Of a stretch of DNA of 64,000 bases, positions 44,898-46,777 are shown piece after piece (position 1 is the stretch's first letter; each line of letters begins with the position of its first letter). The notes below the pieces were generated by a model. It saw nothing but the letters and a program-made list of their open reading frames with translations. It made no database searches and had not been told where the DNA came from. The position numbers and the translations under genes are program-made. This stretch comes from Lachnospiraceae bacterium (lineage in GTDB: Bacteria > Bacillota > Clostridia > Lachnospirales > Lachnospiraceae), in the NCBI GenBank assembly GCA_016288005.1, contig JAEEXY010000004.1:26700-90699 (forward strand), in the 5' to 3' direction.

Positions 44898-45080
44898 ATG
44901 GGTGCTATTTGTCCGAAAAACAGAACTTCTAAAGCCAGAAGAGACAGTCGTCGCGCAAACTGGAAGATGACTGCTCCCAACCTTGTTAAGTGCAGCAAGT
45001 GCGGCGCGCTGATGATGCCTCACAGAGTATGCAAGGCATGCGGCAGCTACAACAAGAAGGAAATCATTCCTCAGGACTAA
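44898..45080 (+). CDS. rpmF: 50S ribosomal protein L32 (zinc-ribbon type)
   Basis: MGAICPKNRTSKARRDSRRANWKM...CSKCGALMMPHRVCKACGSYN. Confidence 0.95.
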   Translation: MGAICPKNRTSKARRDSRRANWKMTAPNLVKCSKCGALMMPHRVCKACGSYNKKEIIPQD

Positions 45081-45096
45081 CAAATGGAATAAAAAT

Positions 45097-45130
45097 GACC
45101 GAGTCATTTATGGCTCGGTCATTTTTTATT
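45097..45130 (+). terminator. Terminator of rpmF
   Basis: aatgaccgag-tcatttatgg-ctcggtcatttttt. Confidence 0.85.
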
Positions 45131-45133
45131 CCA

Positions 45134-45341
45134 CCCCGCCATGCTGCGAACAAGGTGCAAACGCTTCAATGCACCTTGTTCGTGGCGGGGCGGCGAAGCC
45201 GTTTGTGGTCTCGCAGAGGTATTATCGATGCGAGACTACCATCCGGCGGCGAAGCCGTTTGTGCTCTTGCTCCGAAAGCTTGTGCCGGGCTTTGCCCGGG
45301 CACAAGCTTTCGACGCAAGAGTTCCGAATGTAGCGAAGCCG
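45134..45341 (+). repeat. Modular hairpin array: hairpin A, GGCGAAGCC, hairpin B, GGCGAAGCC, hairpin C, AGCGAAGCC
   Basis: Hairpins 45134-45190, 45205-45239 and 45264-45321; CGGCGAAGCCG at 45191-45201 and 45247-45257, AGCGAAGCCG at 45332-45341. Confidence 0.85.
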
Positions 45342-45486
45342 TTAATTATAAAATACGTGTGTTTTTGACCTTCGGCTTGACACAGCCGTAAAAATAAACG
45401 ATACTAAAAGTATAAATGTGGAGAATTTAGTTTACCCCCTACGGTTTCATCGAGCAGGGGGCTGTTTTATCAAGAGGTGCGGTATT

Positions 45487-46527
45487 GTGATTACTCTTAA
45501 AGAGATCGCGCGAATGTGCGGCGTTTCTCCGAGTACGGTTTCGAATATCCTGAACGGTAAGTCGAAAATGTCCGAGGAGACCAGGAATAAGGTTCTCGAA
45601 GCGATCGAAAAGACCGGCTACAGACCCAATTTCTTTGCGCAGGGTATGCGCCGGCAAAACAACAAATTTATATGCATAATCGCCGAGGAACTGCTGCAGT
45701 TCTCGACACCTCCCATCGTTGAGGCTATCATGGATGTCTGTGAAGCCAAAGGCTACAGGACGATCCTCATCAACATGAGCATGTATGAGAAGTGGAAGAA
45801 GACCGGCGTGAATCTCGGTGAGGAAAAGCTGCTGATGAAATACACCTCACCCGCACTGGTCGAAGCAAAGGCCATGAGGGCCGACGGTATTATATATGTC
45901 GCGGCGCACGGTCATGCCGTGGATGTTGTTCCGGACGATTACGGTATACCCGTTGTATTTGCGTACGGACATTCGAGAAACAGCAATTACAGATGCGTTC
46001 TCATCGATGATTTCGGAGGAAGCGTTATGGTGACCCGGCATCTGATATACCGCGGTCATAAGAAGATCGGTGTCATATGCGGCAAAGAAGACAACATGCA
46101 TACGATCGAGCGGTTGAAAGGATACAGATCGGCTCTTTCGGAGTTCGGGATCAAGTACGATAAGGACCTGGTACTGTACGGTGACTGGGAGCGTGAATCC
46201 GGCAGGATATGCGCACGAAAGCTCCTTTCCATGGGTATCACGACCATCTGGTGCATGAACGATCTGATGGCGGCGGGAGCTTACGACGAAGCCATGGCGG
46301 AAGGACTGATCGTCGGAGAGGATATCTCGATATTCGGATTTGACAACAGAGAGATCTCGGAGTATCTGTTCCCTCAGCTCTCTACCTGTGAGCTGCCGCT
46401 CGAGGCGATCGGAAAAACCTGCGCCGAGCAGATCATAAAGGAGATCGAAGACGAGAACTACAGGAGTCAGCCGGCAGAATTGATAAAGATGCCGTGCATG
46501 ATGGTACAGAGAAAATCGGTAATATAA
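45487..46527 (+). CDS. LacI-family transcriptional regulator
   Basis: ITLKEIARMCGVSPSTVSNILNGKSKMSEETRNKVLEAIEKTGYRPN HTH; periplasmic-binding-like domain; GTG start with gaggtgcgg upstream. Confidence 0.92.
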   Translation: MITLKEIARMCGVSPSTVSNILNGKSKMSEETRNKVLEAIEKTGYRPNFFAQGMRRQNNKFICIIAEELLQFSTPPIVEAIMDVCEAKGYRTILINMSMYEKWKKTGVNLGEEKLLMKYTSPALVEAKAMRADGIIYVAAHGHAVDVVPDDYGIPVVFAYGHSRNSNYRCVLIDDFGGSVMVTRHLIYRGHKKIGVICGKEDNMHTIERLKGYRSALSEFGIKYDKDLVLYGDWERESGRICARKLLSMGITTIWCMNDLMAAGAYDEAMAEGLIVGEDISIFGFDNREISEYLFPQLSTCELPLEAIGKTCAEQIIKEIEDENYRSQPAELIKMPCMMVQRKSVI

Positions 46528-46533
46528 ATGTAG

Positions 46534-46630
46534 TCATGCATCGAAAATACCTCTGCATGACCGCGGATGGCTTCGCCTCCTCGCAATAGACAAGATGCAT
46601 TGGAGCATCTGCACCTTGTCTATCGATTGC
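46534..46630 (-). repeat. Inverted-orientation copy of the modular hairpin array (hairpins D and E)
   Basis: Minus strand: acaaggtgcagatgctccaatgcatcttgt - ggcgaagcc - tcatgcagaggtattttcgatgcatga, matching hairpins A and B in order. Confidence 0.8.
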
Positions 46631-46634
46631 AAGG

Positions 46635-46698
46635 TGCGGTTCTATAAACAAAAACAGTATCTGTTACAGCAGATACTGTTTTTGTTTATAGAACCGCA
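46635..46698. terminator. 29-bp perfect hairpin downstream of tRNA-Arg, likely bidirectional terminator
   Basis: tgcggttctataaacaaaaacagtatctg-ttacag-cagatactgtttttgtttatagaaccgca. Confidence 0.7.
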
Positions 46699-46705
46699 TT
46701 CGCTA

Positions 46706-46777
46706 TGCATCCGACGGGATTCGAACCCATGTTACAGCCTTCGGAGGGCTGCGTGATATCCACTTCACTACGGATGC
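46706..46777 (-). tRNA. tRNA-Arg(CCG)
   Basis: Reverse complement gcatccgtagtgaagtggatatcacgcagccctCCGaaggctgtaacatgggttcgaatcccgtcggatgca folds as a cloverleaf. Confidence 0.93.

Follow-up and report, generated by a model that had tools for sequence, protein, structure and literature searches.

We identified, in two copies within the window (the whole 64,000-nt stretch of Lachnospiraceae DNA that was analysed), a dispersed, structured, intergenic element of 145–190 letters that has not been described before. The element shares one fold from copy to copy, its stems are maintained by compensatory changes, the fold belongs to one strand, and its copies are placed behind genes on that strand. 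It is restricted to one genus of rumen-type Lachnospiraceae. We propose that it acts as structured RNA at transcript 3′ ends and in intercistronic spacers and is dispersed in the manner of the REP and BOX repeats, a reading to which we give about an even chance. Its strongest rival is a mobile single-stranded DNA (ssDNA) hairpin of the REPIN kind.

The initial annotation described the window pair as hairpin arrays in inverted orientation. The sequences it quoted occur in the window as given, and hairpin A, GGCGAAGCC and hairpin B at 46530–46634 on the minus strand form the counterpart of the array at 45134–45239. A repeat finder reports the pair as an inverted repeat with arms of 90 nt (45150–45239 and 46530–46619, 79% complementary); other, unrelated inverted repeats within the same 4 kb are much shorter. 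The annotated modules stand, but the limits drawn around them were too small: a further, strong hairpin, H1, and a long-range helix, P0, belong to the unit, and neither these two parts nor the placement at gene 3′ ends nor the wider family had been noticed. In the fold common to 23 copies, P0 closes a four-way junction with hairpins H1, H2 and H3, and a separate hairpin, H4, follows (Table 1). H2 corresponds to hairpin A, H3 to the mini-hairpin, and H4 to hairpin B with its GAGGTRTTTTCGA loop, while P0 has its 5′ arm where the preceding gene ends and its 3′ arm between H3 and hairpin B. GACTAC, previously read as a conserved tail after the loop, is better described as part of the stem, as GACT pairs with a 5′ GGTC at the base of the same helix; the copy behind rnpB has GGGGAAG where the window copies have GACTAC.

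Table 1. Parts of the two window copies and the genes beside them (positions are those of the window).
Feature	Position	Strand	Remarks
rpmF (ribosomal protein L32), precedes copy 1	44898–45080	+	ORF; orthologues in 21/24 genomes of the genus
Copy 1, P0 5′ arm ACAAAT	45080–45085	+	Overlaps last base of rpmF stop codon; pairs with GTTTGT at 45201–45206
Copy 1, H1	45086–45132	+	Also the rpmF intrinsic terminator (stem and T-run)
Copy 1, H2 (hairpin A)	45134–45190	+	Outer stem CCCCGCC/GGCGGGG, 5′ bulge ATGCT, inner stem, loop AACGCTTCAA
Copy 1, H3 mini-hairpin GGC-GAA-GCC	45192–45200	+	
Copy 1, P0 3′ arm GTTTGT	45201–45206	+	Complementarity to 45080–45085 by inspection; P0 helix in alignment
Copy 1, H4 (hairpin B)	45207–45237	+	GGTCTCGCA-GAGGTATTATCGA-TGCGAGACT
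Copy 1, additional H3–H4-like half-unit	45245–45321	+	Partial duplicate, H4 loop exchanged for another long hairpin; repeat D1, inverted repeat I3
LacI-family regulator, between copies	45418–46527	+	Ordinary gene, not composite-element cargo; Pfam; G005 order rpmF-lacI-tRNA-Arg
Copy 2, H4 (hairpin B)	46532–46562	-	GGTCATGCA-GAGGTATTTTCGA-TGCATGACT
Copy 2, P0 3′ arm ATCCGC	46563–46568	-	One A.C mismatch against 5′ arm
Copy 2, H3 GGC-GAA-GCC	46569–46577	-	
Copy 2, H2 (hairpin A)	46579–46634	-	
Copy 2, H1	46635–46698	-	Perfect 29-bp hairpin; inverted repeat I2
Copy 2, P0 5′ arm GCGAA	46699–46703	-	2 nt past tRNA-Arg 3′ end
tRNA-Arg(CCG), precedes copy 2	46706–46777	-	

The family was assembled from the exact loop GAGGTATTWTCGA, which occurs three times in the 3.3-Mb genome, twice in the window and once behind rnpB (reversed-pattern control, 0). 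A covariance model, R1, was built from these three copies; it contained neither P0 nor H1, which were recognised by inspecting the flanks and folds of the copies that R1 found. This search yielded six strong copies in the genome of the window, and 11 of 24 genomes of the genus proved to be carriers. A second model, R2, with 146 positions and with copy 2 left out of its building, gave 8 matches in the genome of the window and 1 to 10 per carrier genome, the window copies scoring E values of about 1e-21 to 1e-22. The other 13 genomes of the genus, some of them incomplete, yielded no copy, which we count against the RNA reading. Outside the genus, R2 had 0 matches among 397 genomes of the family (334 genera) under stricter filters, which miss weak matches. 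When about 85,000 species were scanned by pattern, nine stretches were returned, all from metagenome-assembled genomes labelled Lachnospiraceae or uncultured Clostridia, several of them from rumen or omasum. Rfam 15 holds no family matching at the gathering score, and at E values up to 10 only the tRNA and chance-level matches appear; literature searches for such a Lachnospiraceae element found nothing. Phage origin was considered and set aside, the single IMG/VR pattern match reaching 9.9 bits (E 0.96).

The H4 loop alone, on different stems and in different architectures, is present in other Lachnospiraceae genera, in some of them at 4–7 copies per genome with a low reversed-pattern control; its same-strand bias there is weaker (12 vs 6). 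As a separate observation, the same GAGGTATTTTCGA hairpin stands in other genera (L111–L116, L126, L127, L130, L024) mid-way in long, near-perfect inverted repeats of about 18–35 bp, whose arms vary from copy to copy around a common core, yet are complementary.

The hairpin B stem of copy 1, TCTCGCA/TGCGAGA, is TCATGCA/TGCATGA in copy 2; positions 3 and 4 differ on either side of the stem, so that pairing is restored, as the initial annotation had pointed out. From this it had argued that the fold is under selection, a conclusion that the wider alignment (A6, MAFFT, 23 copies) bears out. In A6, 47 pairs are predicted in 6 helices, and at least one double change occurs in 41 of them; all six helices contribute, P0 in 5 of its 5 pairs. 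Standard pairs fill 95.0% of 1076 pair cells, compared with 72.6% for shuffled and 38–47% for slid partners, and 264 cells carry double changes where 74 are expected. The shuffle control is inflated by the kinship of the copies, a weakness from which the slid control is free. The outcome that the initial annotation had named as refuting, uncompensated stems or unstable loops in other copies, was looked for: stems proved to be paired, and loops conserved, GAGGTRTTTTCGA (near-invariant) in H4 and AAYGNNYCAA in H2. The covariation of P0 and H1 is not a selection artefact, because both were missing from the model that found the copies. Local fold-back correction is a poor explanation for P0, since this helix spans about 110 nt.

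The exceptions to Watson–Crick pairing indicate which strand folds. Among the non-Watson–Crick cells, G.U exceeds A.C by 32 to 9 (p = 0.003), a count that leaves out the invariant G.U column of the loop. One strand, that of the preceding gene, therefore carries the fold, which speaks against a double-stranded cruciform and agrees with RNA or ssDNA of that strand. The apex of H4 consists of the stem, a tandem G.A, a G-C pair, a G.U and URUUU; two copies have A-U instead of G-C, and the apex is thus itself structured. The initial annotation had also proposed a recognition role for the conserved loop, which may be bound by a putative factor. A hairpin of related form, CTT-GGTATTTTC-AAG, stands near the element in L021/L099; Watson–Crick pairs there take the place of the loop's tandem G.A. 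Extra hairpins within the hairpin A loop occur in copies between the aspartokinase and aminotransferase genes (L103 1324–1518, L108 2614–2800), and short tandem duplications at the H4 3′ end occur in L087 (on the minus strand, immediately below 3944) and in L072 (5131–5160), where GCAAGACTTCCTTGTGA and CGAGGCTGTGACTACCTT, respectively, are repeated.

In about 20 of 25 strong copies P0 starts no more than a few nucleotides from the end of a gene on the same strand, be it a stop codon, the end of a tRNA or that of rnpB. Seven of these sites follow tRNAs. The preceding tRNA genes on the same strand include tRNA-Val, tRNA-Leu (three isoacceptors), tRNA-Ser, tRNA-Trp and tRNA-Arg. The other preceding genes on the same strand are rnpB, rpmF, groEL, type III glutamine synthetase (glnA), secG, khpA, glycogen phosphorylase, an AICARFT/IMPCHase-domain (purH-like) gene, a GH115 enzyme and a MoCF-domain protein; weaker copies follow a PRPP-synthetase-like gene and aspartokinase. 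In L079 tRNA-Val and tRNA-Met stand on either side of the element, the latter only 10 nt on, so that it should be co-transcribed. Exceptions are the copies in L073 and L081, which adjoin tRNA 5′ ends on the opposite strand, those in L096 and L098, which lie divergently upstream of rnpB, and those in L082, L090 and L092, each behind a duplicated 3′ tail of tRNA-Leu.

The strand bias and the L079 position lead us to the RNA reading, as do the rnpB and tRNA-Arg sites, where it replaces a terminator, and the rpmF site, where P0 pairs with a host flank that also occurs without the element. With P0 starting at, or immediately after, the stop codon or tRNA end, and the fold on the strand of the preceding gene, the element would act at the RNA level: tRNA, RNase P RNA and mRNA transcripts would contain it in their 3′ trailer or intercistronic spacer. 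There it may shape or protect the RNA 3′ end, as an exonuclease barrier or a processing signal, with the conserved loops of H2 and H4 bound by a putative factor, and new copies would arise now and then through some duplication or insertion process. A stronger form, which we consider unlikely, would make it an RNA 3′-end module common to tRNA, RNase P RNA and mRNA, in which a dedicated factor reads GAGGTRTTTTCGA and AAYGNNYCAA and which replaced intrinsic terminators at some loci. Two copies in the genome of the window, copy 1 and the groEL copy (L074), sit downstream of canonical terminators and could be transcribed by read-through only, which argues against a general RNA role. The sites, which vary from species to species, the placements in L073/L081 and L096/L098 and the tandem duplications in L088 and L089 likewise count against it, being what a mobile repeat would show.

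The hairpins right after stop codons or tRNA ends resemble intrinsic terminators, and H1 to H4 could be a termination module standing in place of one. The tRNA-Arg and rnpB sites of relatives without the element carry an ordinary intrinsic terminator in its place, and H1 of copy 1 is the rpmF terminator. However, the T-run is missing from most H1 and H4 hairpins, as it is from H2 to H4 generally, and copies often lie between co-directional genes: tRNA-Val and tRNA-Met (L079), aspartokinase and aminotransferase (L099, L103), and secG and rnr (L094). After some copies (L086, L092, L095) there is also a separate terminator-like hairpin with its own T-run. We regard a terminator variant as improbable.

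The inverted orientation of the window copies around lacI, and the fact that copy 1 is closest to copy 2 among the copies compared (72%), could suggest a composite element whose two arms carry lacI between them. This is contradicted by G005, which has the same order rpmF-lacI-tRNA-Arg with a copy at tRNA-Arg only and a plain terminator at rpmF. The window pair therefore represents two separately acquired or lost copies: rpmF (+) and tRNA-Arg (-) converge, and the copy behind each has the orientation of that gene, hence the inverted look. We give the composite arrangement almost no credence; the likeness of copies 1 and 2 would fit local spread. In G005 the rpmF site, which is free of the element (L179), has the flank TAACAAATG as in copy 1, so that the ACAAAT with which the P0 arm of the inserted copy pairs exists there without the element. 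Between the tRNA-Arg orthologues copy 2 and L078, P0 and H4 show compensated changes and the outer stem of H2 is wholly replaced. The sequence of copy 2 H1 (46635–46698) is entirely unlike H1 of the G005 orthologue. L073 and L081, first taken for an orthologous pair (8 compensated, 0 uncompensated pairs), occupy different tRNA-cluster positions and are paralogues only.

Insertion polymorphism at orthologous sites (rpmF, rnpB and tRNA-Arg) is in keeping with the strongest rival, in which the element would be non-autonomous mobile DNA of REPIN or MITE type that inserts beside terminator hairpins and gene 3′ ends, keeps its fold for a trans-acting transposase working on ssDNA of one strand, and has no host function. 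The rpmF site is filled in the genome of the window (G000) and empty in G005, and the rnpB site is filled only in G000 and G020. Tandem and partial copies exist, duplicated tRNA-Leu 3′ tails precede three copies (L082, L090, L092), and at one site, L086, the adjoining terminator hairpin is repeated on either side of the element. However, the Y1 transposase (PF01797, Y1/RAYT) is absent from the genome of the window (99.55% complete) and from the carriers G005, G010, G014 and G017, and is present in several element-free genomes. Reverse transcriptase (PF00078) is absent in 8 of 11 carriers, which does not suggest a group II intron or retroelement. Neither terminal inverted repeats nor a general target-site duplication of MITE type was found, the exceptions being the repeated hairpin of L086 and the tandem copy of L088. 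Copy number is low, and orthologous copies persist with their pairing retained. On balance we consider mobile DNA possible, though less likely than the RNA reading. A 583-aa neighbour (L092/L097) was examined as a mobilising enzyme and rejected; by sequence reading it has a lipoprotein-like N-terminus, and it matches no family.

Several structures beside copies at tRNA-Leu were noted in their own right. At L092 2797–5050, genes of HTH, MNT-type nucleotidyltransferase and HEPN type lie in a 2.1-kb stretch bounded by a pair of direct repeats; these comprise the final ~20 nt of tRNA-Leu and a (partial) element, which suggests an islet at a tRNA hotspot. In L082 (4879–4950) and L083 (326–400) two hairpins beside the element lie within a segment with complementarity to the T-arm of tRNA-Leu (GGACTTGAA...TTCAAGTCC), and the antisense segment of L089 carries the matching variant of its own tRNA-Leu (AGACTTGAA).

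REPs are located at gene 3′ ends and in intercistronic spacers. The present element resembles REP/BIME and REPIN sequences in consisting of short extragenic palindromes scattered through intergenic DNA and dispersed at gene 3′ ends. Such hairpins are predicted to fold in ssDNA or mRNA, and for REPINs a clover-shaped fold has been proposed (PMC3116915). In contrast, our element has a four-way junction plus an extra hairpin, measures about 145–190 nt, has an unrelated conserved sequence, occurs in 1 to 10 copies (8 in its own genome) and not hundreds, lacks a Y1 transposase in its own genome, and keeps a fixed orientation to the upstream gene. BOX, ERIC and similar repeats have been reviewed as prokaryotic MITEs (PMC10969869); they too are short, intergenic, strongly folded and polymorphic in presence, whereas ours, in this comparison of features, lies in a different lineage and shows neither terminal inverted repeats nor general target duplications. 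Clostridiales-1 (RF01699) and Bacillaceae-1 (RF01690) are lineage-restricted structured-RNA candidates of unknown function from comparative genomics (PMC2864571). Our element is likewise a lineage-restricted candidate with covariation, and differs in matching no Rfam 15 family.

The 23-copy alignment makes the choice between RNA and mobile DNA testable. If mobile, the element would be REP-like but lack the customary transposase. Should it act as RNA instead, rumen bacteria would carry an unrecorded structured element behind core genes (tRNAs, rnpB, rpmF, groEL and glnA), with a direct route to the protein that reads its invariant loops. Should the RNA 3′-end module prove true, the H4 loop in other Lachnospiraceae genera would be the mark of a family-wide RNA-binding system.
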